Of a stretch of 64,000 nt of DNA, positions 2,256 to 43,293 are shown piece by piece; within the stretch, counting starts at the first letter, position 1; the number at the start of each line of letters is the position of its first letter. A program made the translations under genes and the position numbers. This DNA comes from Halothermothrix sp. (GTDB lineage: Bacteria > Bacillota > Halanaerobiia > DY22613). The stretch is taken from positions 124,001 to 188,000 of the forward strand of contig JAENYK010000009.1 in NCBI GenBank assembly GCA_016841825.1. Reading direction: 5' to 3'. The notes under the pieces were generated by a model, which ran no database searches, had not been told where the DNA came from, and saw only the letters and a list, made by a program, of their open reading frames with translations.

Positions 2256-3812
2256 TTACTCATAAATAGTTCGGGCTAATGGATGTAAGGATAACCAACG
2301 ATCTTCAGCATCGTATATATCTGCCAGAGAATATATATTAATAATCCCCAGCTCATTGCATAAATTTGATACTCTTTGTAAACGGTCATACCTTTCTTCA
2401 CGGGAAGGCATCGGGTTCTCAATGTCATAAGTCTTAAATTTGGTCAGATTAATCACCGATTGGGGGTAGATGCACTCATAATCATAATCTGCAGAAGCTC
2501 CCTGTCCTTTAGGAAAATAATAATAAGGATGAGCCTCCAGTTCATAGATATGTTTATGGTTCTCCCGAATAAAATCAAGGGTTATATTAAAATCTGCTTC
2601 AGTCTCTGAAGGAAAGCCTACGACCCAGTAAGTAGTTGTCCTAATCCCTGCACTAGCAAGAGATTTTAAAGATTCACTCATATTTTCAGGAGTAATTTTT
2701 TTATTCATCACCTTTAACATCTGTGGTGATGCACTTTCCATCCCCAGACGAACCCGATATAATCCTGCTTCTGCCCATTTCTTTGCATTCTCCCGATTCA
2801 TAACCTGGGGTTCTGCCCGTAGATAACCATCAAACAAAATTCCTGCTTTTTCTTTGATTAACTCAGTCGTTAGGTCTTCTATATAAAAGTTCATAATCGC
2901 ATCACCCATAAAGAAAGTATTCTTCTCATGTTTCTCTTTCAATGCAATCAGTTGTCTTGTCAGATACTGTGCGTCTTTTTTCCGATATGGTCCCCACTGC
3001 ATTTTTTCAGAGCAAAATTTGCAGCTATATGGACATGAGCGGGCACCTTCGATAGTTAAGTGAAAATAACTGTCAATATTGAAATCAGAAAAATCTGGGG
3101 TAGTGCTCTGATTTAAGTCCAGAACCTTCTCATCTATATCCTTTAGATAGAGCATTCGTTTATCGGGAAACTCACCGGCAAGAAACTTTGCCAAAAGAAG
3201 CTCTCCTTCGCCGATGATTACCTTGTCAACATAACCATAACAATCTAAAAGGATCTGTAAGTTTTCAGTACCAACAGCTAAATCATCGGTAAACACCCCT
3301 CCCCCCATGATCGTAGTCACAGAGGGAAAGTTGTTTTTGACTATTTTGTGGACAAATAAGGATGAAGCTAAAGAAGTAGTATATGTACTTGTACCAACAT
3401 ATTCATATTGATTAATCTGCACTTCTTCTAATACAGTTTTTTCTAAAATGGCAAAATAACTCTGAACCAACTGAATTAAGTCGTCAATAACTGTCTGCTT
3501 AATCTCATAAACCTCCAAAAGAGTCTTTAAAAGCTGGTAGCATTCTTTTTGAGATGCACCGTTGATATAGGCGAGTAAATGTTGATTTAAAATATTCCAG
3601 TATAGTGAATACCCATTCAGGTGACGCCTGTTGACTTTGTCGATGATACCGAAATAGTTATGGTGCATATTCCACAATTTAATCTGGGTATTAAAATTAA
3701 AACATTTTACTAAATGGCCTTCTTTTTCTAAGTATGACTTCAAGACTGATATCCCTAAAGGTGGGGAAAAGGGAGTTGAAAAAGGTGGTACAGTTAGCAA
3801 AACTTTACTCAT
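2256..3812 (-). CDS. B12-binding-type radical SAM enzyme between the two NRPS genes
   Basis: A 518-residue radical SAM protein. The N-terminus has the pattern of B12-binding-domain radical SAM proteins (PPFSTPFSPPLGI, an 'IMGGG' loop near 170, and 'IIGEGE' near 200). The iron-sulfur ligands are C260, C264 and C267 in SCPYSCKFCSEK. Proteins of this class often methylate unactivated carbons, and in NRPS clusters they act as tailoring enzymes. The ATG at 3812 is preferred because AGAGGTGAT sits just upstream; a GTG at 3821 would add three residues but falls inside that site. The gene starts 32 nt after the large NRPS stop and ends 28 nt before the next NRPS start, so it is inside the operon. The exact reaction cannot be read from sequence; C-methylation of the peptide or acyl chain is an inference. 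Confidence 0.88.
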   Translation of the reverse strand: MSKVLLTVPPFSTPFSPPLGISVLKSYLEKEGHLVKCFNFNTQIKLWNMHHNYFGIIDKVNRRHLNGYSLYWNILNQHLLAYINGASQKECYQLLKTLLEVYEIKQTVIDDLIQLVQSYFAILEKTVLEEVQINQYEYVGTSTYTTSLASSLFVHKIVKNNFPSVTTIMGGGVFTDDLAVGTENLQILLDCYGYVDKVIIGEGELLLAKFLAGEFPDKRMLYLKDIDEKVLDLNQSTTPDFSDFNIDSYFHLTIEGARSCPYSCKFCSEKMQWGPYRKKDAQYLTRQLIALKEKHEKNTFFMGDAIMNFYIEDLTTELIKEKAGILFDGYLRAEPQVMNRENAKKWAEAGLYRVRLGMESASPQMLKVMNKKITPENMSESLKSLASAGIRTTTYWVVGFPSETEADFNITLDFIRENHKHIYELEAHPYYYFPKGQGASADYDYECIYPQSVINLTKFKTYDIENPMPSREERYDRLQRVSNLCNELGIINIYSLADIYDAEDRWLSLHPLARTIYE

Positions 3813-3844
3813 TGAGATCACCTCTAATTTTTAAGATTTAAGAG

Positions 3845-6800
3845 TTAAAAGTCAAATTCCTCTTCTATTTCATCAATTTTTGTTTCAGTTCTTTGATTTA
3901 CATTATCTCCTAATTCTGGTTCTAAAGCTACTGCATCACTGATATATTCAGCAATATCCTGCAAAGTGCGTCTTTTAAAAACTTCCCGCAGCGAGAGTTT
4001 GATACCAAACTCTTTTGTTACCCTTGAAACCATCAATACAGCGTTCAATGAATGTCCTCCCAGTTCAAAGAAATCACTATTTCTATGAATTAATACCGCT
4101 TCATCGAAAACTTCCCGCCAGATCTCGACCAATTTTTCCTCTGTAGAATTTTTTGGAGGTTCTGCAGATTGAGTAGTTTCTACTTCTAAAACCAGGTCTT
4201 TTAGAGCCTGATGATCAATTTTCCCGTTAGACTTTAGTGGCAGTTCAGTCAGTTCAACAAAATAAGTAGGGATCATGTATTCTGGCAATTTTAACGCCAG
4301 ATAGTTTCTTAACTCCTCTTCAGCTACAGTCTCTGCACTAACATAATACAGTACTAGATATTTGATACCCTGTCGATCGACTTTATCGGTAACCACTGCC
4401 TGTTTTACTCCAGGATGTTTTAGTAGTTTAGCTTCAATTTCACCGAGTTCGATTCTAAAACCACGAATTTTAACCTGATAATCACTCCTACCTATAAACT
4501 CAATATTGCCGGTAGTAAGCCATCTGCCCAGGTCACCAGTACTATACATTCTCTCTCCAGGGATGAATGGATTTAGCATAAAACGCTCTGCTGTCAATTC
4601 CTGATTTGCCAGATAACCTCTGGCTAAACCATCCCCAGAGATATAGATTGCACCAACGACTCCAATCGGTACTGGTTTTAGAGCCTTATCCAGAATATAA
4701 ATTTGCACATTACTCAATGGACGACCTAACGAAACAGTGCTAGATTCATCTAAAGGATTGAAGTCATATGCAGCTGCATCAACAGAACACTCTGTTGGAC
4801 CATAGACATTTGTAACCAGCGGTTTTACAGCCTTAAATCTTGACATAAAGTCTCTAACACTATCCTGATAAAGCACATCTCCACCAATAATAAAACGTTC
4901 TACCGGCAATCCCTTTTCTAAAGAACTAGTGTCGTTATTGAGCGCTTCAGAAATCATCCTCAAATGAGTTGGGGTTCCATCAGAGATTTGAATATTGTAT
5001 TGACGATAAAATTCCACTAACTCAGTACCATCCTTGCGAATCTCTTCAGGGACGATGAATAAACAATGTCCAAATAATAAGGCGGCAAAAATCTGTTGAA
5101 CAGATGCATCAAAGATATACGGTGCTACTAAAGCAACATTTAATCCTGAACCATGATAAGTATAGATATTTGCTTTAAGACCTACCATTAAGTTAAGCAC
5201 ATTTCGATGTTCAATCATTACTCCTTTTGGATTACCTGTCGAGCCTGAAGTATAGATTACGTACGCTAAATCGGTCGGTTTACTTAAATTTTCTAGCTCT
5301 TCCTCTTTAGTGTATAATAAAGCCTCACTCTCTAAATGGATGAACTCTATTCCCAGATCACTGCTGAGCCTAATCGAGAGTTCTCTATCAGTATGGAGTA
5401 ACAATTTACAACTACTATCTTTTAACATAAACTCTATTCTGCTCACAGGATAGACTAAATCTAATGGTAAATAAGCTCCGCCCGCCTTTAATACTCCCAA
5501 AATACCTATTACCATCTCCACCGAACGATCTGTGAATAAGCCAACTATCTGATTTGAACCAACTCCTTTTTCCTTTAACAGACAGGCCAGCTGATTAGTC
5601 TTTTCATCCAGTTCCTCATAGGTTAAAGTTATCCCCTCAGCACAGAGTGCAGGTGCGGTTGGATTACTGATTACCTGTTCTGTAAATAACTGCTGGATTG
5701 TCCTGTCTTTACAATATTTCACTTCGGTTTTATTAAACTGATAGATCAGTTCATCTCGATAATCTTCAGAGATTAACGCTATATCTTGCAGATAAATTTG
5801 GGGATTTTTTAGTACCTCATGGATAATATTTATATAACATTGTGCCATGGTCATAATAGTATCGTGTTTAAAAAGATCAGTGCTGTATTCCAATCTGAAA
5901 TGAAGCTGATTATTCATCTCAAAAGCTACCAATACCAGATCATATATTGCTGTCTTATACTCAAAATTATACGGTTTAAGATTAAGTTCAGACTCTTCAT
6001 TATATTCAATTTCGTCAGTAGCATTCTGTAAAGCAAACATCACATCAAATAATGGACTATGACCTAGATCTCTCTTCAATACTAGCTTATCGACTAATGT
6101 ATCGAATTGATAGTCCTGATTGTCAAAAGCTTCTACTGAACTTTGCTTAACCTCGGCTAAAAACTCTTCAAAGGTTTTGTTACTCTCAGGATAATTTCGC
6201 AATGCTAGCGTATTGATAAATATTCCGATAATATTCTCCAAATCAACATGTCTTCTACCGGCTATCGGTGTACCGACAATAACATCCTCATTATTCGAAT
6301 ATTTAGCAAGAAGAATGTTAAAGCTCGCGAGCAGAGACATAAATAGGGTTACTTCTTTTTTAGCACCAAACTCTTTTAGTTCGGTAGTAAGTTGTCTGTC
6401 CAGGACAAATTTTACTAAATCTCCAGTTAGATCTGGAACTGATGGTCGGATAAAATCAGTTGGCAGATTCAATACTGGTATCTCTCCGGCAAACTTATTT
6501 AGCCAATACTCTTCCTGATCTTTAATTTCAGCTGATTGTAAAAGCCCGTTTTGCCATGCAGCAAAGTCCTTATATTGAACATTTAATGGTTCTAAATCTT
6601 CACCTGCATAAAATGCACTTAGCTCTGTATAGATAACCTTAATTGATACTGCATCTGTAATTATATGATGAACATCAAAGATTAACAACGTTCTTTCAGA
6701 AGTTCTAATCACTCCTACCCTGAGTAAAGGTGCTTGTTCAAAATCAAAAGGTCTGATAAATTTGTTAATGATCTCTTCTACTGTTAATTCTTCTGCTTCA

Positions 6801-9800
6801 ATAGATTCAATGGCAAAATCTACCTCTGATAGAACCTGCTGCACTAAATTACCATCTATTATGGTAAAAGAGGTGCGAAATGCCTCATGTCGTTTAATCA
6901 TTTCTTTAAAGGCATTTTCAAGCCTTGCCAGATTAAAACTGTTACCTATCTCCAGAACTACAGGGACATTATAGATAATGCTATTTCGATCAAACATGGT
7001 CAAGCTATATATCCGACGTTGGGCAGCGGAGACCTGATAGTATTCAGCTTCCGGAATCGGTTCAATCGATTCATAAAGACTCTCCTGCAGTTCCTCAATT
7101 ACTGCAGCCATTTCTGCCACCGTCGGTCTCATAAAGACCTCCATCAGTGACAGTTCCACATTCATTCTCTGATTAATCCGTGCGATCAGCTGGGTTGCTT
7201 TAATCGACTGGCCGCCATGTGCAAAAAAGTTATCAGCTATCCCCAATTCTCTACCCAGAACTTCTTCCCAGATAGCCAATAGTTTTGCCTCTACTTCAGT
7301 CCGCGGCAGTTCTTTCTCCTCTCCCACTGATTTTTTCAATTCCATTAAAGCCTGACGATCTAGCTTACCATTAATGGTCAGGGGAATCTTCTCAATCTCT
7401 ATTATCTCTCCCGGAATCATATATTCTGGCAATCTCGCCAATAGATACTTCCTGATCTCCTCTATTGAAAGATACTCTCCTTCGCCGATAACATATCCCG
7501 AAAGATAGATCTCACCAGCAGTATCTCTCTCATCAATCACCACTGCTTCTTTAATACCTTCATAGGAGCGAAGCTGTTCTTCAATCTCTGCCAGTTCAAT
7601 CCGATAACCTCTGAGTTTTATCTGTTGATCCAATCTGCCCAGGAATTCAATATTCCCATCTGAAAGCATCCGCCCTGAATCCCCTGTCCTGTACATCCGC
7701 CAGCCTTCAATGAATGGATTCCCGGTAAATCTCTCTTCTGTAAGTTCAGGTTGATTTAGATAACCCCTACTCACACCATCACCAGAGATGTATAGCTCAC
7801 CAGGTATTCCTATACCCACTGGTTCCAGATTGGCATCCAGTAGATAAATCGCTACATTGTCTGCCGGTTTGCCTATCGGTACTGAGCTGCCATTATCCAA
7901 CTCAGGATTATACCGATGGATCATGCATCCAACCACTGTCTCCGTTGGGCCATATTCATTATAAATCCTCAGATTACCCGCAAACTTGTGATAAATCCTA
8001 TTGGCAAGTTCTGTACCCAGATTCTCCCCGCCGACAATCAAAGTCTTAAGTCGTGAATTCTGCACATCCAGTTCCTGAATGATCTTTAGATGGGCCGGAG
8101 TTAGTTTGATCAGATCGACCCGATCTTCTTCGATAATCTTCGTAATCACTCCACCCTTATCTTTAGCGTCATAGATTACAATCCTGTTTCCCGAAAGCAG
8201 GGGAACAAAGATGGAAGTGATCGTCAGGTCGAAAGCTATGGATGAGTACAGGGGAACACTAATCTGCTCTCCCTCCAGATAGACTTTTTTCGCCCAGGTT
8301 ATGTAATTAACTACTCCACGCTGCTGAACCAATGTTCCCTTTGGCAGACCCGTTGATCCGGATGTGTAGATCACATAGGCCAGATTTTCCGGACCACAGC
8401 CTCCTGTAAGTTCTCCTTCTCCAGTGATGGACTTCTCTAAGTTATCCAGACAGATAACTTCCCCGGTAAAGTTGTCTTCGGCAGAGTCTTTTCCAGGACG
8501 GTCTTCTCCCATATGATTTTCTACATACTCTGTAATCCCATCCAGCAGATGGCTCTGGGTTAAGAGGACTTTACATCCACTATCAGTAAGCAGATACTTA
8601 ATTCTTTTCTCCGGATAGTCGGGATCAATCGGCAAAAAAGCACCATTAGCCTTTAAGATACCAAGGATTCCGACTATTAACTCTATCGAATGGTCAGCCA
8701 TGATTCCCACAATGCTCTCTTCTTTAACTCCTTTGACCACTAACATCCTTGCCAACTGATCTGAGAGTACATCTAATTCTTTATAGGTCACCTCTCGATC
8801 GTTTACTACTGCCAGACAATCGGGGGTCTGATCAACCTGTTCAGCGAAAAGCTGTTGGATAGTTCTCTCCTCCGGATATTCACTCTCTGTCGCGTTAAAC
8901 TCATATATTAGTTTAGTTCTCTCTTCTTCAGTGATCAGTTGAATATCCTGTAAGACCGTATTTGGATTTGCAATCAAGCTCCTCAATATGTTAACAAAAT
9001 ATCGACCCATAATCTCTACTGTAGTCCGCTTAAATAAGGCTGTACTATAATCGAATTTGAAATGAATCCGGTCATCCATCTCATAGGCTACTAATACCAG
9101 ATTGAATTTAGCTATCTTATATTCAAAATCGTACGGAATAAATTTTAATCCTGATTCTTCAAGATAACCCTGAACATCAGTAGCATTCTGGAAGGCAAAC
9201 ATCACATCAAAGAGAGGAGTATGGGCAGTATCTCTCTTCAACTCAAGTTTTTCAATTAACATATCAAACTGATAGTCCTGATTATCAAATGCCTTCAGTG
9301 AACTCTCTTTAACCTCATCTAAAAACTCCTCACAGGTCTTCTTCATCACCGGATAATTGCGTAAGGCTAGAGTGTTTACAAACATTCCGATAATATTCTC
9401 CAGATCAGCATGTCTTCTACCTGCCGTTGGTGTACCGATAATGATATCTTCCTGTGCAGAATATTTGGCTAAAAGGATGTTAAAGACAGCGAATAAGGTC
9501 ATAAAGAGGGTCATTTCCCGCTCTATAGTGAATTGATTTAATTCTATAGTAAGTTCTTTATCCAGAGCAAAGTATATTGAATCACCCTCAAAACTCATCA
9601 CTGCTGGACGTTTAAAATCTGTAGGTAGATTTAAAATTGGTATCTCCCCCGTAAACTCCTCCAGCCAATATTCTTCCTGATTTTTTAGCTTATCCGATAA
9701 AAATAGTTCGTTCTGCCATACAGCGAAATCTTTATAGTGAATCTCCAATGGCTCTAAATCTATACCTTCATACAAAGCATTTAACTCGGTAAAGATCACC

Positions 9801-12800
9801 TTCATGGATACCGCGTCTGCAATAATATGATGAATATCAAGCATTAACAACATTCTCTCAGGAGTCCTGACCACTCCCACCCTGAGCAGAGGTGCATTCT
9901 CTAAATCAAAAGGTCTAATAAAAGTGTTAATGATCTCTTTAACTGCCGATTCTTCTACTTCAATAAACTCAATGGCAAAATCTACCTCTGGCAGAATTTT
10001 TTGAACAACCTTATCTTCCACCATTGTAAAACCTGTCCGTAGTGCTTCATGTCTGGTCACTAATGCTTTAAAAGCTGATTCCAGCCTCAATATATCTATC
10101 AACTCATCTATTTCTAAAACCACCGGAGCATTATAGGAGATTCCGTCTTTGTCCATCATCGCCAGAGTATAAATTCGCTGCTGGGCAGCAGAGACCTGAT
10201 AGTATTCAGCTTCCGGAATCGGTTCAATCGATTCATAAAGACTTTCCTGCAGTTCCTCAATTACTGCAGCCATTTCTGCCACCGTCGGTCTCATAAAGAC
10301 CTCCATCAGTGACAGTTCCACATTCATTCTCTGATTAATCCGTGCGATCAGCTGGGTTGCTTTAATCGACTGGCCGCCATGTGCAAAAAAGTTATCAGCT
10401 ATCCCCAATTCTCTACCCAGAACTTCTTCCCAGATAGCCAATAGTTTTGCCTCTACTTCAGTCCGCGGCAGTTCTTTCTCCTCTCCCACTGATTTTTTCA
10501 ATTCCATTAAAGCCTGACGATCTAGCTTACCATTAATGGTCAGGGGAATCTTCTCAATCTCTATTATCTCTCCCGGAATCATATATTCTGGCAATCTCGC
10601 CAATAGATACTTCCTGATCTCCTCTATTGAAAGATACTCTCCTTCGCCGATAACATATCCCGAAAGATAGATCTCACCAGCAGTATCTCTCTCATCAATC
10701 ACCACTGCTTCTTTAATACCTTCATAGGAGCGAAGCTGTTCTTCAATCTCTGCCAGTTCAATCCGATAACCTCTGAGTTTTATCTGTTGATCCAATCTGC
10801 CCAGGAATTCAATATTCCCATCTGAAAGCATCCGCCCTGAATCCCCTGTCCTGTACATCCGCCAGCCTTCAATGAATGGATTCCCGATAAATCTCTCTTC
10901 TGTAAGTTCAGGTTGATTTAGATAACCGCGACCAACACCATCACCTGCAATGTAAATCTCACCCGGCAATCCAACCCCCACCGGCTCTAAAGTGGAGTCC
11001 AGAAGATAAATCTGCGCATTGTCTGCCGGAATCCCAATCGGAACAGTTAAACCTCGGTCTTTCTCCGGTTGATAGCGGTAAATCATACATCCCACTACTG
11101 TTTCTGTTGGACCGTACTCGTTATAAATTTCTATCTCTCCACCGAACTTCTGATAAATCTCTGCTGCCAGATCAGTCTTTAATGCTTCTCCACCAACTAT
11201 TAATTTTTTTACTTTTGAAGCTGCAAGCTCAAGCCCTGCCATGACCTTTAAATGAGCTGGCGTTAGTTTGATTATATCTACCCGATCCTCGCTAATAATT
11301 TTACCAATTAACATCTCTCTTTTATCGCTAGTGTAAATTATGATCTTGCTGGCCGAAAGAAGTGGTAGATAAATAGAAGTCACCGTCAAATCAAAAGCTA
11401 GAGATGAATAAAGCGGGAAGTCACACCTTTCACCCTGTAGATAGACCCTCTTTGCCCAGATTAGATAATTGACCACAGCCTGATGCTCGATTAATGTTCC
11501 TTTCGGTCTTCCAGTAGAACCAGATGTATAGATTACATAAATCAGATTAGTTGAACTATAAACCGTGCTTAAGTTCGTACCATCCCCAGTATATAGCTTG
11601 GCATCATCCAGATAAAGTACTGCACAGTCTGATAATAGTTTTGACCGGAAAGAGTTCTGGGTTAATAGTAGTTGAGTGTCACTATCTTGTAAGATGTAGT
11701 CTATCCTCGCTACTGGATAATCGGGATCAATCGGTAAATAAGCACCTCCTGCTTTTAAAACAGCAAAAATTCCAATCAATGCCTCAATAGAAGCATGTAC
11801 CATAACCCCAACAATCTGCTCTGATTTCACACCTTTAACCTTAAGCTTACGGGCCAATTGGTTTGCTTTTTCATTTAACTCATAATAAGTAATACTAGTA
11901 TCTTCAGAAATTGCAGCAATTTGTTTTGGGGTTTTAAGAACCTGTTCTTCAAAAAGTCGATGAACAGTCTTTGTCAGTGGATACTGAACTTTTGTCTGAT
12001 TAAAATCATAGAGGAGACGTTTCCTCTCTTCACCAGAGATTAATCGAATATTAGCTAACCCGATTTCAGGGTATTGGACAACAGCTTTTAAAAGATTTAT
12101 AAAATATTCTATCATTTTGACTATAGTCTCTCTCTTAAAGAGGGCTGTACTGTAATCTAAACGGAAATGCAGTTCATTTTCGATCTCATATGCAACCAAA
12201 ACAAGACTAAATTTGGAAATGGGATACTCATAATCATAGTTAAAAATTCTAAGATTATCTGTTCCGAAATTTGTCAAATTCCGGGTATAGATTGAAAAAT
12301 CATTGGCGTTTTGCAGAACACACATTACGTCAAACAATGGATTCCTACTCATATTCCGTTCCAGACCAAGCTTATCAACTAACATATCAAACTGATAATC
12401 TTGGTTCTCAAAGGCAGAAATAGCATTCTCCTTAACTTCACTTAAGAAAGCTCTAAATGTTTTCTCTGAAGCCGGTTGATTACGCAGTGCAAGGGTATTA
12501 ATGAATGAGCCTACAATACGCTCCAGTTCTGCATGTCGTCTTCCGGCAACAGGTGTACCGATTATTATATCATCCTGACCAGAATACTTTGCCATCAACA
12601 CATTAAAACTGGCAAGCAGGGTCATAAATAGAGTAACATCCTCTTTTCGGGTCAGCCGTTTTAGAGCTTCAAACAATTTTTGATCCAGCACAAATTTAAG
12701 ATTGTCGCCAGCAAAAGTCATCACTGAAGGCCATGGAAAATCAGTTGGTAAATTTAACGTTGGGAGATCGCCCGTAAAGCTATTAAGCCAGTATTCTTCC

Positions 12801-15800
12801 TGTTCTTTAATAATCGGAGATTCTAAAAACTTATTCTGCCAGATTGTAAAATCTTTGTATTGAACTGGCCCAGGAATTAACTCTTTACCCTGATATAGAT
12901 CAAAGAGATCTCTTAGCATAATATCCATGGAAACTCCATCGGAAATAATGTGATGCATATCGAGCATAAAGAGAGTTTTATCCTGAGTCTTAGTAATACC
13001 TGCCCGTAATAATGGTGCCTGACTTAAGTCAAAAGGTCGGATAAATTTTTGAATAACCACCTTTAACTCTGTTTCAGCAGCCGCTAAATATTCTAAAGTA
13101 AAATCTACATCCTGATGAATCTTTTGAACTATTTCCCCACCCTGAAGGTAGAAAGATGTACGTAAAGATTCATGCAATCGGATTAATCCATTAAAAGCTT
13201 CTTCAAAGGTGGTTATATCTGGCGTGCCTTTCATTTCCATGACGATCGGTGCATTATAAGCTATACCACCTTTATCAAATCTGGTTAAGGTATACACCCG
13301 TTTTTGAGCTGCTGAAACCGGATAAAACTCCCTATCTTCGATTTTTGCAATGGCAGAATATGCCTTTATCTCTGCTTCTTTAATATATCTAACCATCTCT
13401 TTTAAGGTGCGTCTTTTAAAAACTTCCCGCAGTGGGAATTTGACCTCAAACTCTTTATTAACTCGGGAAACCAATAGAGTAGCATTTAAAGAATGACCTC
13501 CTACTTCAAAGAAATCACAATCTCTACTTACTCTGGTTAAATCCAAAACATCCTTCCAGATTGCCATCATCTTCTCTTCGGTAAGATTTTTCGGTTTTCC
13601 CTCATCAGAAATGGCTTCCACTCCTAATGTGAGTCCTAACAGAGCCTGGCGATCTATCTTACCATTAGATTTTAGAGGCATTTCGTTAAGGAAGATAAAA
13701 TGTGCCGGAATCATATAATCCGGAAGCTCAAGTGCCAAATACCCCCTTAACTCCTCCTCTGTTATATCCCCTGAATGAACCAGATATGCAGTCAGATATT
13801 TTACCCCCTGACTATCAGTCTGATCAGTAACAGCTACCTGTTGTATCCCGGAATATTTGAAAAGCCTTGTCTCTATCTCTCCAGGTTCAATCCGATATCC
13901 GCGAACTTTTACCTGATAATCAGCCCTACCAACAAATTCAATATTACCATCACTAAGCCATCTGCCAAGGTCGCCAGTTTTATACATTCTCTGCCCTGAT
14001 CTAAATGGGTCTGGAATAAATCGTTCTAAAGTCAGTTCACTGTTTGCCAGATAACCTCTGGCTACGCTATCACCCGATATATAGATTTCTCCAATAACGC
14101 CCACAGGCAATACTTCAAAATTCGTACTCAGAATATAAATTTGCAGATTACTTAAGGGACGACCAATCGGGACAGTCTCAAATTCATCTTCCATTTTAAA
14201 GAGGTAGGCAGTGGAGTCAACACAGCACTCTGTTGGTCCATAGATATTAGTAATCAGAGGTTGATAATCCCTGAACTTATCCAGGAAGTGTCTAACATTA
14301 TCCTGATAAAGACTATCTCCACCGATAATAAAATGTTTGACTGGCAGATCATCGACAATTAAAGATGCTTTAGCAATTAGACTTAAGTGCATCGGGGTTC
14401 CATCAGAGATACAAATATCATACTCATGATAAAACTCTACCAAACCTTCACCATCCCGACGGATATCTTCAGGAACAATATATAAACAATGACCAAATAA
14501 CAGGGCAGCAAAAATCTGTTGAACAGAAGCATCAAATATGTATGGTGCTACCAATGCAACCTTTAAACCTGAACCATATCTGGAATAAATATTCTCTTGT
14601 AGACCAACCAGTAGATTAATCATATTTCGATGTTCAACCATTACTCCTTTAGGAGTTCCTGTTGAGCCCGATGTATAGATTACATAGGCGAGATCAGTTG
14701 GTTTGTTTACTTTATCTATCAATGTTTTCTCAGTAATACGTAAACTTTTAGTGGAAAAACCTAATCTCTCAATCTCTATATCCAATTGATCCACATATTG
14801 GCTGTCCGAATGAAGTAATAGTTTACTCTGACTATCTTTTAACAGATATTCAATCCGGGCTTTGGGATATTCAAGGCCTATCGGCAAATACGCTCCTCCT
14901 GCCTTTAGAATCCCCATTATGCCAACTATCATTTCGATAGAGCGATCTGTCAGCAGACCAACCACCTGATCTCGGCCTACCCCTCTATCCCTTAATAAGT
15001 CAGCAACTCGATTAGACGCTTGATCTAATTCTTCATAAGTTAGTAGTTCACTGCCAGCACAGACTGCAAATTCTTCAGATGTTTTAAAAACCTGTTCTTC
15101 AAAAAGATCTATAATAGTTTTCTCTTTAGCATAGAATACCTGAGTATCATTAAAACTGTGAAGAATCTGAGTCCTTTCCGACTCTGAGAGAATATCTAAT
15201 TGACTCAAAGTTAGCTCTGGGTTCGCTACAATCTGCCTGAAAAGATTTATTAAATGCCCAGCAAACCTCTCCATCGCTGCCGGTTTAAACAATTGAGTAC
15301 AATATTCCAATTTAAAATTTAGCTTACCATCATCTTCATACGCTACGATGGTAATGTCAAATTTAGAGATGGTGTGTTTGACTTTAACAGGTTCAAACAC
15401 CAACTTACTTTGAGGAGTAATAATGTCTGTATCACTATACAGATATACATCCCCAGTATTCTGCAGAGCAAAAACTATGTCAAATAATGGGTTTCGACCG
15501 CTCTGTCTCTCCAACCCCAACTTTTCAACAAGAAGTTCAAACTGGTAATCTTGATTTTCGTATGCTTTAAGCGCATTCTCCTTAACATCATTAAGCGTTT
15601 GCGTATATGTTTTGTCTACAAAAAGAGAATTTCGCAGTGGCAGCATATTAACAAAACAACCCACTATCCCTGATAGATCAGCATGTTGTCTGCCAGCAAT
15701 AGGTGTACCGACGATAATGTCATCCTGACCGGTATATTTTGCTAATAATATATTAAAACCAGTAAGCAGAGTCATAAAAAGCGTTGCTTCATTGGCTTTA

Positions 15801-18800
15801 GATATACTTTTTAGCTCGGTAAAGATATCTTGATTTAAGGCAAATTCCACCTGGTCTCCTTCGTAACTCAATACCGCTGGTCTGGCGAAATCTGTTGACA
15901 TTTTTAGAATAGGGATCTCACCCGTAAACCTTTCTACCCAATATCTTTCCTGTTCTTTAATTCGCTCAGAATTTAAAGCCTGATTCTGCCAGAACGCAAA
16001 ATCTTTGTATTGAATCGTCAGTTCAGACAAGGGATTCCCCTGATATAATTGATCAATCTCACTAAAGATAATCTCCATAGATATCGCATCAGATATAATA
16101 TGATGGATATCCAGCATAAAGAGATAACTGGCTTCAAATTTAGCAATCTCCACTCTAAATAAGGGTGCCTGCTGTAAATCAAAGGGGCGGACAAACCCTT
16201 CGATAGTCTTTATGACCTCATCTTTTTCTATCTCAGAGAATCCGACTTCAAACCGAACCTCTTGATGAACTCTTTGAACAATCACATCATCTATAACATC
16301 AAAAGACGTCCGGAGTGAATCATGTCTTCTGACTATTTCTTTAAAAACTCCGGTTAAGCGTTCAAGATCTAATTCGCCGTTGATAATTTTAATTACAGGA
16401 GCGTTATAGTAAATGCTGTAATTTTGTGCCTCACTGATAACATAAAGACGTTTTTGAGCAGAGGAGACCTGGTAATATTCCTGTTCAGGAACCTGTCTAA
16501 TTGCATAAAACTCCTTCCTTTCCAGCTCGCGGACGACAGCGGCAACTTCCTTTAATATCCGACGTTTGAAGACTTCCCGCAATGGGAATTTGACATTAAA
16601 CTCCTTATTAATCTTGCTCACTAGAACAGTTGCATTTAGTGAGTGACCCCCATGTTCAAAGAAATCATCTTCCACACCCACTTTTTCAACACTTAATACA
16701 TCTTCCCAGAGCTCAATCATTCTGGCTTCAACATAATCTACTGGGGCAGTTTTAACAAAAGTGACCTTGCTCTCCAACTCAGGTTCAGGTAATGCCCGTC
16801 GATCAATTTTTCCACTGGGGGTTAAAGGTAATTCAGTTATCTGCACAAAGACTGAAGGAATCATATATTCAGGTAACTCTGCTGTCAGATAGTCTTTTAA
16901 TTCAGTTGCTTCTATCAATCTATCGAAGACGACATAAGCACAGAGATACTTAAACCCGTCAGCACCAATTTTAGCCACCACAACGGCCTTTGTTACTGCC
17001 TGATGTCCAACAAGTCTGGCCTCAACCTCACCTAACTCTATCCGAAAACCACGAATTTTTACCTGATAATCAGCCCGTCCGATGAATTCAATATTGCCAT
17101 CTCTCAGTCTGCGGGCAAGGTCACCAGTCTTGTACATCTTCTCACCTGGTTCATAGGGATTTGTGACAAAACGCTCTTCAGTTAATTCAGGATTTGACAG
17201 ATAACCCCTGGCCATTCCAGCTCCGGAAATAAAGATCTCCCCCACAGCCCCGACAGGTAACATCTCCAAATTTCTTCCAAGAATATATATCCTTTCATTG
17301 GCTAGCGGAGACCCAATAGTTACGGTTCCACTATCAGTTAATTCCAGAGGATTAATCAGATAAGCAGTAGAGTCAACACAGCACTCAGTTGGTCCATATA
17401 CATTATGAATTTTTGGTTGATCTTTTATTAGCTCCCAAAAATTTTTTACCTCTTTTTGATACAAAACCTCGCCACCCACGATGAAATGCTTAACTGGTAT
17501 CTCCGTAATCTCAGAATTAAAAACCATATTCATCTGACTGATATGGGTAGGAGTCAGGTCAGAAACCTCAATCTGATACTTATTATAAAATTCAAATAAA
17601 TCCGCCCCATTTTTTCGGGTTTCTTCAGGTACTATGTATAGGGTATGGCCTGGAAGCAAACTCCCAAAAATTTGTTGTACAGAGGCATCGAAAACATAAG
17701 GTGCCACTAAGGCAATGTTTAATGGTTTATTATACTGATAATAGATAGTCTGCTCCAAACCAGTTATCAGGCTAAGTACACTCCTGTGCTCGATCATTAC
17801 TCCTTTAGGATTACCTGTCGAGCCAGAAGTATAGATGATGTATGCCAGATCATGCGAACTATTAATTAACTCTGGATTATGTTGATCATTAAAATGGAAG
17901 TCATTAGAATAGATATCCTCAATTATTAATGTCTCTACCTCTGCAAATTGTAGATTTTCAACTAATTTTTTCTGACTAAGAAGTATTTTCGAATTGCTGT
18001 TTTCAAGCATAAACTTAATTCTCTCTCTGGGATAATCAATGGCAATAGGTAAATAAGCTCCACCTGATTTTAAAACACCGATGATCCCCACTATCATATC
18101 CACACTGCGCTCAAATACCAAGCCGATAATAGTGTCCGGAGATACTCCCTTTGTACGTAAGCCTTTAGCTACTGAGTTAGCCCGCTGATTTAATTGAGCA
18201 TAAGTTAAAGTCTCTGTACCATCACTAACAGCAGTCCTATCTGGTGATTTTAAAACTTGCTCTTCGAAAACCTGTTGGATAGTCTTATCACTGTCAAATT
18301 CTATTCTGGTATTGTTAAATTCATTTATTAAGATATTCTTTTCCTCTGAAGAGAGCATCTCAATTTTGGAGAGAGTTATTTCAGGATTTTTGATAACCTC
18401 CCCGATAGTGGTGATCAGATAATTGGCCATTCGGGCGATGGTCTCTTCAGAAAATATATCGGTACTATATTCCCAGTCAAAACTGATAGTTAACCCATCC
18501 AGAAAAGCGTTAAAAGTAACATCAAAAACAGAAGCCTGTTTAACATATTCACCCTGCACAAACTGAACATCACCGGTTGTCTTTAAAGATCTATCCACGT
18601 TTTGCATAACCAGCACTGCATCTACTAATGGACTACGCTCTAAGGTTCCCGGAATGTTTAACCTTTCTACCAGGGTATCAAACTGATAGTCCTGATTTTC
18701 ATATGCTGTAAGTAATATTTCTTTAATTTCCAGCAAAAATTCCCGAAAAGTTTTTCTTCCTTCAGGCTTATTGCGTACTGCTAAGATATTGACAAACATA

Positions 18801-21875: not shown

Positions 21876-23474
21876 TCAAACAATCTCCAAATTATTAATA
21901 GCCTGTCGGAGAATTCTATCGGGTTCCGGAATAAATTTGTTTCTAAGCAGAGCATTAAATCCTTTCACAAAACTCATGATCTGCTCCTGACTCATTCCTT
22001 TCCCCAAAAGGGTTGGAATAATCCAGAAGTCAAAATTATATTGGGGAAGCCAAATAGAGTTTTTGACAGTCAAAAACATTTTGTCCACCCAATCTGATGC
22101 CTGCATGGAGTTCATTGTAACATGGCTCCATTGAAAACTCATCCCCTCAATCTGTAAAGTTTCTTTTTGCTCCATGATTGGAGTAACTGGATCACAATAC
22201 CAGATCTGAGCCCGATAAAATGTCGGACTCGTCTCTTCTATAAAAGCAATGGTCTCCTGAACTGTTCTTTCAGTCTCACCCGGAAAACCAATAATTAAAG
22301 AAGCGAAGTTAAGAATGTCATATTTATTTAACAGTGCAATGCCTTTACGATACTTGTCAATCTGAGCACCTTTGTTCATCTTCTGTAAAATTCCCGAACT
22401 TCCTGATTCAAGCCCCAAAAAGACACCCGCACAACCACTTTCTTTCATCAATTGAACAGTTTCTTCATCTAAAAATTGACAGCGCAAATATGAAAACCAT
22501 TTATAACCATACTTATTTCGCATCATCATTTTACATATCTCTTTAAAACGATTTTGGGGAATATTAAAGGTATCATCAATAAAAGCCAGATATTTGACTT
22601 TTCCATTATCTTTCAGGTAACTTAGCTCTTTTTCTACTGTGCTAACTGATGCAAGGGTATATTTCCCAGCCCGCACAGGATAGCCACAAAAAGAGCAGTT
22701 AAAAGCACATCCCCTTGCTGTACGAAGATTAACGGTTCTACCTAATTTATCGGAATCAAATAAACTCCAATCAACATAGTTTTTATCTAAGTCATTATTT
22801 TCAAAAGAAGAGTCTGTAGATATTATTTTTTTGTCTTTCAGATAAAAGATATTATCAATGTCGGCAAATGATTTATTATTGATTAATGCATCAATAATCC
22901 GATATAAAGCATATTCCCCTTGAGAACTGTTAACATAGAAGTCAGCATTTAAAGACTGCAACATAAACTTTAATGTTTCCGAGTCAAATTGTGCGCATTG
23001 GTTGGATATAAAAGGGCCACCAATTATAATCTTCACTGACCTATTGTGTTTACGTATAAATGTAATTATTTCAATAATTGGCAATGGCGAGACATAAAAC
23101 GTGGTAGTAATTGCAACAGTTCTGACATTGGTTTTTAGTAATTCTGCCAATCTATCCTTCTCATGTTGAAAAATATTTATGTACTCTGTTATTAAACCTT
23201 GTCGGTTCAAGAAAGTACTTAAGTAAGCCACAGCTAGACTTAAAGGTTCTGCACAGTGAATGTTACTATCTATCCCTTTTCTTTTTCGCAAATAATTTAA
23301 CAGTCCAGCGGGAGTATATTTTTTTTCTTCGTATTCCACAAAGTTTAAGTTCAAGTCCCGATAAGCACCAGAATTTTCACCCATACTTCTCAGCACTCTT
23401 TCATAATTAGCAAAATCAGGCTCATTATACCCTATTAGAATGCAATCTATAGGTTGAGTTATGGTTTTTCCCAT
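21876..23474 (-). CDS. B12-binding-type radical SAM enzyme, first gene of the NRPS operon
   Basis: A 532-residue protein with a B12-binding-like N-terminal region (residues about 1-180, with IIGGPFIS) and a radical SAM core with C256, C260 and C263 in GCAFNCSFCGYP. The beginning (IDCILIGYNEPDF, then SMGENSGAYRDLNLNF) looks, from memory, like the group often annotated as PhpK-like radical SAM methyltransferases found beside NRPS and PKS genes; I cannot confirm this by search, and it should not be read as P-methylation. The ATG at 23474 is chosen because AAAGGAGG lies 12 nt upstream; an upstream ATG at 23507 would put that site inside the coding region and has no site of its own. A 226-nt gap without a clear promoter separates it from the large NRPS, so co-transcription is likely. 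Confidence 0.85.
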   Translation of the reverse strand: MGKTITQPIDCILIGYNEPDFANYERVLRSMGENSGAYRDLNLNFVEYEEKKYTPAGLLNYLRKRKGIDSNIHCAEPLSLAVAYLSTFLNRQGLITEYINIFQHEKDRLAELLKTNVRTVAITTTFYVSPLPIIEIITFIRKHNRSVKIIIGGPFISNQCAQFDSETLKFMLQSLNADFYVNSSQGEYALYRIIDALINNKSFADIDNIFYLKDKKIISTDSSFENNDLDKNYVDWSLFDSDKLGRTVNLRTARGCAFNCSFCGYPVRAGKYTLASVSTVEKELSYLKDNGKVKYLAFIDDTFNIPQNRFKEICKMMMRNKYGYKWFSYLRCQFLDEETVQLMKESGCAGVFLGLESGSSGILQKMNKGAQIDKYRKGIALLNKYDILNFASLIIGFPGETERTVQETIAFIEETSPTFYRAQIWYCDPVTPIMEQKETLQIEGMSFQWSHVTMNSMQASDWVDKMFLTVKNSIWLPQYNFDFWIIPTLLGKGMSQEQIMSFVKGFNALLRNKFIPEPDRILRQAINNLEIV

Positions 23475-23507
23475 TTTATGCAAATTCCTCCTTTTTATTA
23501 TTTTCAT

Positions 23508-42276: not shown

Positions 42277-43293
42277 TTAAAAAAACATCTTATGTCTCTT
42301 TATTTTCGGCACAAATTCGTATCCCCGGTAGACCTCTAAACCCTCATCAGGAAGAAGCGGTCCAACTATCGCCACTTTTTTCCTTCCCATATTAAGTATC
42401 TCGTTACATTTAGGCTTAGAATGTCCTCCACTAGATTGCCAAAGCATCTCCTGGGATACACTAAACACAACTTTCGAGATTCTGGCCCAATGAATCGCTC
42501 CAGAACACATTACACACGGTTCCGTACTCGAATAAAGCGTAAAACCCTCTAACGAAATCTTCTTATTCGATTGACAATATTCCCTGATTACATTTATTTC
42601 AGCATGTGCAGTAGGGTCGGATAACCTGAGACTTTTGTCTTCACTTTGACACATTAGCATTCCATCGTAAACTAGAACCGCTCCAAACGGATCTTCCCCA
42701 TTCTGTCGTGATTGATAGGCCAAATCTATAGCTAGCCGCATAAAATATTCATCTTCATTATACAATTCTCTAAACTTTTCCTTTGTCATCCTTACTAGAA
42801 ATCCATCATCAACCAGGGAATCATGTTCAAATCCAAACTTTAGTAATAGCTGCTGGCCTGCTATATTATCTAACACGATCAAATCTTCCATAACTTGTCC
42901 ACCAAATTCAAAAAAATAATATCCTAAAAGCAAATATATTGCTTCTGTAGCATAACCTTTACCCCTATGTACTGCTGCAATTTTTATATTCAACTGGCCA
43001 GTTTTTGCCTTCGCATTATAGCGATGAAAACTAATTTCACCAATTGGTGTATCATTCAAATCAAAGATCAAACAATAATAATCTGTCTCACTTCCGGGAG
43101 AGACCATGCGTCTGTACCACTTTTCTATTTGTTCATCAGATAAGCTGATAGACCTACCAACTTCTTTCATCGTCTCTTCGTCCATCCACAACCATTGAAT
43201 GTATTCTAATTCATCATATCCTGGTGGACGAAGATATATATTTTTACCTTTTAAAGAACGGTGTTTCTGTCCTACAATACTGTTATAATCCAT
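42277..43293 (-). CDS. GNAT acetyltransferase-nucleoside deaminase fusion
   Basis: 338 residues with two domains. Residues about 10-180 are a GNAT-type N-acetyltransferase (IYLRPPGYDELEYIQWL; acetyl-CoA loop in VHRGKGYATEAIYLLL; LLKFGFEHD). Residues about 187-320 are a zinc-dependent cytidine/guanine deaminase-like domain: catalytic HAEINVI (TAHAEINVI) and zinc ligands in PCVMCSGAI. The pair GEDPFGAVLV is usual for the guanine deaminase/tRNA adenosine deaminase group. Both active sites look intact. Whether the two act on one substrate is unknown. It lies about 150 nt upstream of the maturase gene, which has its own promoter, so the genes need not be linked in function. Confidence 0.88.
   Translation of the reverse strand: MDYNSIVGQKHRSLKGKNIYLRPPGYDELEYIQWLWMDEETMKEVGRSISLSDEQIEKWYRRMVSPGSETDYYCLIFDLNDTPIGEISFHRYNAKAKTGQLNIKIAAVHRGKGYATEAIYLLLGYYFFEFGGQVMEDLIVLDNIAGQQLLLKFGFEHDSLVDDGFLVRMTKEKFRELYNEDEYFMRLAIDLAYQSRQNGEDPFGAVLVYDGMLMCQSEDKSLRLSDPTAHAEINVIREYCQSNKKISLEGFTLYSSTEPCVMCSGAIHWARISKVVFSVSQEMLWQSSGGHSKPKCNEILNMGRKKVAIVGPLLPDEGLEVYRGYEFVPKIKRHKMFF

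Follow-up and report, generated by a model that had tools for sequence, protein, structure and literature searches.

A near-identical 737-bp tract in two diverged modules of an NRPS gene points to recent inter-module gene conversion

How did two modules of one NRPS gene come to share 737 bp of almost identical DNA? The question arises in a window of 64,000 nucleotides from Halothermothrix sp. (contig JAENYK010000009.1, positions 124,001 to 188,000), which is the whole stretch of DNA that was analysed here and to which all positions refer unless a contig is named. A preliminary description of the window had reported the repeat as joining modules 3 and 4 and attributed it to recent gene conversion or module duplication. 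The gene that carries it encodes a multimodular NRPS, with repeating C, A and T domains that contain their core motifs and with Pfam matches far over the cut-off. Specifically, an N-terminal AMP-binding domain and a T domain are followed by five C-A-T modules, as read from Pfam on three pieces and from a motif map (Table 1).

Base-level alignment confirms the near-identical repeat with its 3,162-bp offset, its two differences and its abrupt ends. Between 7029-7765 and 10191-10927, 735 of 737 bases are identical at an offset of 3162, which is in frame (1054 codons), and both copies lie within the single open reading frame of the NRPS gene; the range 7029-10927 given in the preliminary description is the span across both copies. 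The longest exact run measures 642 bp (7083-7724), positions 7082 and 7725 are the only differences in 7029-7765, and the tract ends are sharp to one base, with mismatches at 7028 and 7766 flanking them. Read in the coding direction, the tract begins at GYLNQPELTEERF, which lies 65 aa past the A5 motif start and 24 aa ahead of A7; it covers A7, A8, A10 and the T motif GGQS and finishes within the C1 motif (YYQVSAAQ) of the C domain that follows. Pfam and the motif map assign the copies to modules 3 and 4, and the motif map places the T domain inside the tract, so that the carrier is included in the repeat as described. The wider homologous pair around the tract aligns at 82.9% over 2,014 bp, near-identical part included, and none of the other 41 matches listed in the same genome, with 40 of the 114 first-look candidates scored, exceeds 83% identity or 207 bp.

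Table 1. Positions of the NRPS gene, its repeat copies and flanking domains, and of related features in the window and on other contigs of the genome.
Feature	Position	Strand	Basis or remark
NRPS gene, 5,934 aa	3845..21649	(-)	ORF, Pfam on three pieces, motif map
Repeat copy in module 4: end of A-core (from A6 motif), Asub, T, first residues of next C (C1)	7029..7765	(-)	sequence match, motif map
Repeat copy in module 3, same domain span as the module 4 copy	10191..10927	(-)	sequence match, motif map
Difference 1	7725..7725	(-)	codon 4642 ACC (Thr) vs ATC (Ile); 40 bp from tract end
Difference 2	7082..7082	(-)	codon 4856 GAG vs GAA, silent; 53 bp from tract end
A-core of module 3, not homogenised	10931..11989	(-)	code DLTKIGEVG; 59% aa to A-core 4
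A-core of module 4, not homogenised	7769..8827	(-)	code DLTKIGEVG; 59% aa to A-core 3
C domain between A3 and A4	8840..10204	(-)	62% aa to the C domain following A4
C domain between A4 and A5	5726..7042	(-)	partner of the C domain between A3 and A4
Radical SAM protein, neighbour gene	2256..3821	(-)	Pfam; B12-binding match under Pfam cut-off
PhpK-family radical SAM methyltransferase, directly upstream of the NRPS gene	21876..23507	(-)	TIGR04479, 673 bits, cut-off 600
C4 tract	contig C4, 68995/72121		3,083 bp exact of 3,126 bp; tandem A-T-C unit, offset 3126
C22 tract	contig C22, 10230/13362 (region 10230-16468)		2,825 bp exact, tandem; inside C through A to T-C linker
C14 tract	contig C14, 92960/102118 (region 92960-105077)		2,093 bp exact; C5 motif through A into T motif
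C41 direct repeat, 1.2 kb, non-NRPS, at contig end	contig C41, 1-1217/1772-2988		99.75%
A domains that appear interrupted by radical SAM	C4 76815-83033; C14 33925-43272 (most); C2 157166-163090; C21 from 163000

The tract and its flanks differ sharply in age. The A-cores of modules 3 and 4 share 59.0% amino acid identity (about 55-60%) with a pS of 0.76, which is saturated, and the C domains that follow the two modules share 62.6% with a pS of 0.64, whereas the tract shows 99.6% identity and a pS of 0.006. At the nucleotide level, identity outside the tract is 61% for the A-core and 70% for the C domain. Third bases of fourfold-degenerate codons are alike in 98 of the 99 codons counted as tract, the third base of the 99th being position 7028, one base outside the tract by alignment coordinates, versus 74 of 184 outside. 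When the 1,017 aligned codon columns were shuffled 20,000 times, no exact run exceeded 60, whereas 642 was observed. Chance or protein constraint is therefore inadequate to account for the repeat. Additionally, among the 4,095 pairs formed by 91 A-T units, defined by motif in the NRPS regions fetched, modules 3 and 4 stand alone in showing the largest discord of Asub-T minus A-core (0.995 versus 0.602), and the other three pairs with near-identical Asub-T (1.000, 1.000 and 0.979) are also identical in the core. Strong protein-level selection keeping the two copies alike would agree with the argument, made in an excerpt of a survey of NRPS exchanges, that Asub-T interfaces are under strong selection (PMC8097286), but the silent sites are identical as well, and no other of the 4,095 pairs joins so similar an Asub-T to so diverged a core. 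Protein constraint was rejected because fourfold sites in the tract are not diverged as they are outside, and the probability that we leave to selection is close to nil.

The same contrast bears on module duplication. Identity over the full period of about 3.1 kb, the mark of a whole-module duplication, is not found: near-identity covers just 737 of 3,162 bp, and whole-module duplication was ruled out as the cause of the repeat on this ground. Recent recombination is thus supported; gene conversion, one of the two origins first suggested, agrees with the data, and recent module duplication does not, because the flanking A-cores and C domains are old and diverged. The repeat could instead be the relic of a recent whole-module duplication in which one A-core and one C domain were later replaced while Asub-T was kept. 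A-core swaps sparing Asub form the majority in the available part of the exchange survey (PMC8097286), and a nearly complete A-T-C unit duplication does occur on contig C4 of the same genome; however, this history requires three events, two of which must have stopped exactly at the tract, the 508 kb of NRPS-bearing DNA examined holds no near-exact donor for the flanks, and each of the two C domains has its best match in the other. We regard it as rather improbable.

The relationships of the flanks are consistent with modules that were already homologous before the event. The two C domains pair as mutual best matches (62%; next best 52%) within the NRPS regions examined, where A-core 4 also has its best match in A-core 3, so that no outside donor is required for the flanks. 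On the other hand, the A-cores of modules 3 and 4 are weakly sister, and this counts against conversion: in a tree of 11 A-cores (modules 1-5 plus six chosen from the best-match list) they pair at 83/89, not starred, inside a group of eight with strong support (100/100). It also counts against conversion that the top-scoring match of A-core 3 is a module on contig C41, with 389 bits versus 386 for A-core 4. In view of this weak pairing, modules 3 and 4 do not have to derive from one another by simple duplication. Ordinary homologous recombination, moreover, would have been inefficient at nucleotide identities such as those of the A-core and C domain outside the tract, a further point against conversion.

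Related genomes were searched for an ortholog that could tell donor from recipient. Counting its own genome in each, the comparison covered 1 genome in the genus, 2 in the family, 2 in the order and 59 in the class. No match outside the own genome was found within the order at E <= 1e-100, and none of the 58 other class genomes gave a match at E <= 1e-170 (0/58). Ten plasmid records had a match, none reaching 80% query coverage. These searches bear on a single crossover at Asub-T, by which an incoming C-A-core-Asub-T would have joined a shorter synthetase and left the 737-bp homology as direct repeats. Such an insertion would leave the arrangement seen here, two repeats around a unique 2.4 kb, without disturbing the frame, the offset of 3162 being 1054 codons, but its donor must have had a near-identical Asub-T together with a differing A-core and C, and no such donor appeared among the 58 other class genomes at E <= 1e-170; an absent strain could be the donor. 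We consider this insertion unlikely. In the same 58 genomes, an A-T query gave between 0 and 11 first-look candidates per genome, compared with 114 Condensation matches here.

A near-identical tract with abrupt ends, older homologous and diverged flanks, and silent sites that are identical too are all present at this locus. Given flanks that are old despite their homology, we take the tract to be most plausibly a conversion that came later, and among the readings compared, recent gene conversion appears to fit best, at a probability that we put at roughly two in three. We propose that modules 3 and 4 were old, diverged homologues before the event and that 737 bp of one were recently replaced by the sequence of the other through non-reciprocal recombination within the gene, either as gene conversion or as a double exchange of equivalent effect. 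This event would have started in the conserved A6 motif and stopped in the conserved C1 motif. With ends at A6 and C1, Asub, T and their interface would have been carried as one block, and each module would have kept its own substrate pocket and C domain. We infer that the transfer was non-reciprocal and neutral for the product.

Both modules had been predicted to use Asn, and the substrate code supports this prediction. Modules 3 and 4 share the nine-residue code D-L-T-K-I-G-E-V-G, of predicted Asn type, whereas modules 1, 2 and 5 have D-A-Q-D-I-G-(V/I)-V-D; the code positions in the A-cores were read by what we take to be the anchors. The tract begins downstream of all nine pocket positions that were read and contains only the A10 lysine, so that the repeat does not explain the shared Asn-type code. 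A substrate switch, in which the pocket falls within the exchanged tract, is not what is seen here, the codes being equal in both modules. Because the pocket lies outside the tract and the codes are the same, the copying was probably silent for substrate. In the excerpt of a code survey available to us, DLTKIGEVGK is placed in the Asp/Asn section and is also compatible with Cya-3 (PMC12283262). The same source has DAQDLGVVDK, one or two letters off the code of modules 1, 2 and 5, recognise Glu and Gln (PMC12283262). With these codes, part of the predicted product would be two neighbouring residues of Asn type flanked by ones of Gln/Glu type.

Further exchanges occur in the genome, which spans 5.08 Mb in 43 contigs and has at least 114 Condensation matches, partial ones included, with 111 of the 132 candidates scored. 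Its ThrRS reaches at most 70% identity among the 80 best of 587 records, the nearest of them from Clostridia, which gives the genome an approximate, Clostridia-like placement. A search of 508 kb of NRPS-bearing DNA, to which the window belongs, turned up 17 direct exact matches (32 bp or longer) and 3 inverted seeds, and four exact matches are longer than 600 bp: those on contigs C4, C22 and C14 and the 642 bp of the window. The three additional long exact inter-module tracts provide supporting context for conversion. In the C22 tract, the first part of C is diverged between the copies, the C14 tract joins two genes 9,158 bp apart, and among the four inter-module tracts only that on C4 comes close to duplicating a whole module. 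Outside these regions, a search of 794 kb at 88% identity or more showed one repeat longer than 600 bp, that on contig C41, whose 3 differences all lie within 31 bp of its end. This repeat is not in an NRPS region and counts against conversion, since the process, or else some effect of assembly, is not limited to NRPS genes; the tracts between NRPS modules, however, have four different extents.

An assembly effect deserves attention, namely that short-read assembly merged two similar stretches or invented one copy. The 16S gene was not found in the genome, although the same search found one in just 9 of 14 control genomes, so that the miss is no proof, and among 18 contig ends read (from 9 of 43 contigs) 6 pairs share sequence, five over 48-55 bp and one over about 290 bp, as in a short-read draft broken at dispersed repeats. 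With these two features the assembly looks like a short-read draft, and the exact interior identity and copy number of the tract are therefore not certain. Additionally, in all 12 near-identical pairs inspected (7 from control DNA), no difference is flanked on both sides by more than 53 identical bases, a pattern that would be expected from an assembler merging small differences and equally from recent exact copying. Merging could mask interior differences or extra copies, but it would not produce the sharp ends. An invented second copy is unlikely because each copy sits between unique flanks that differ from those of the other, the reading frame is uninterrupted, and a single linear order, A-R-B-R-C, appears to use all junctions. 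Overall, we hold an artefact to be quite improbable as the source of the repeat.

Recent gene conversion between modules 3 and 4 would be a good instance of a known process and not a new one, in agreement with the view of recombination or conversion as a known route of NRPS evolution (PMC2174460, PMC4256081); the papers compared here are cited from the excerpts available. The closest likeness is to mcyB1 and mcyC, which inter-module recombination homogenised within one cluster (PMC2174460): there too, recombination overwrites part of one module while the C domains outside are highly diverged. The mcyB1/mcyC tract runs from A1-A10 into mid-T and covers the substrate pocket, unlike the tract in the window, which starts at A6, spares the pocket and extends through T to C1. 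Natural A-core exchanges resemble it in being sub-domain exchanges inside A, with conserved core motifs suggested as hotspots (PMC8097286). In that survey the A-core is exchanged and Asub spared in the majority of cases, with exceptions such as BP 18, where Asub is taken with much of the A-core and part of T (PMC8097286); the window shows nearly the complement, in that Asub-T moves and most of the A-core stays. Substrate-silent exchange may not have been sought in the survey. Concerted evolution of PKS/NRPS domains is alike in that internal recombination homogenises modules after duplication, but the NRPS evidence in the excerpt is the branching of domain trees (PMC4256081), whereas the window offers a single tract with base-level ends. 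One of the recombination hotspots described in C-A-T modules starts near A5 and lies on the downstream side of the pocket (PMC7486941), and the window tract begins 65 aa past the A5 start; the excerpt places the others between C and A or, at A2-A4, upstream of the pocket, and none at C1 (PMC7486941). Adjacent near-identical domains in Pseudomonas lipopeptide modules were read as duplication (PMC9948697), which corresponds to the tandem unit on C4 and not to the window tract. For the wollamides, intragenomic recombination after gene duplication is described (PMC9205934).

The locus gives a base-level view of a recent inter-module exchange that ends at conserved motifs and has three companions in the genome. 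Its ends may guide the choice of fusion points in NRPS engineering, and it carries a warning that draft assemblies may miscount modules at such tracts. If the assembly is right, recombination between the copies, 1054 codons apart, would change the gene by exactly one Asn-type module, lost or gained, with the frame kept, so that module expansion or contraction between strains is possible in principle. A broader interpretation, for which we see the odds as clearly unfavourable, is that the A6-to-C1 block of Asub and carrier may be an exchange unit in its own right, moved silently between modules with pocket and C domain left in place, and that this NRPS-rich genome may hold four recent inter-module exchanges of four extents. 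If that were true, the genome would be a lasting natural experiment on the points at which assembly lines tolerate cutting and joining.

Several side observations concern radical SAM genes. The neighbour gene at 2256-3821 scores under the cut-off of all 20 NCBIfam families listed. A neighbouring radical SAM protein matched 12 stretches of genome contigs, none encoding a relative. The genome has three PhpK-family genes (one on C4 and two on C18), each adjoining NRPS genes. A phosphinothricin-like reading of the PhpK-family gene was dropped: no PEP mutase passed its cut-off, the one hit reaching 171 bits against 319.55, and what we take to be the PEP mutase motif pattern is absent in that candidate.

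In four NRPS proteins outside the window, a radical SAM domain (CxxxCxxC) appears to split the A domain past the A2 motif, and the A3 pattern was matched beyond the insert in three of the four. Pfam on two of the inserts gave radical SAM followed by a B12-binding domain (51.1 and 32.2 bits, cut-off 32.1). The C2 insert, used as a query, had no match at E <= 1e-60 in 397 other genomes of the phylum sample, with at most 3 candidates scored in each. In excerpts of two papers found on the topic the radical SAM enzymes stand alone, and the interrupted A domains are possibly more novel than the repeat itself. Elsewhere in the window, two shorter repeats, 46129-46291/47816-47980 (97% over 165 bp) and 45411-45540/50470-50599 (91.5% over 130 bp), lie near methyltransferase and ABC transporter genes, and the ORF at 42277-43293 combines GNAT acetyltransferase and cytidine/deoxycytidylate deaminase domains.
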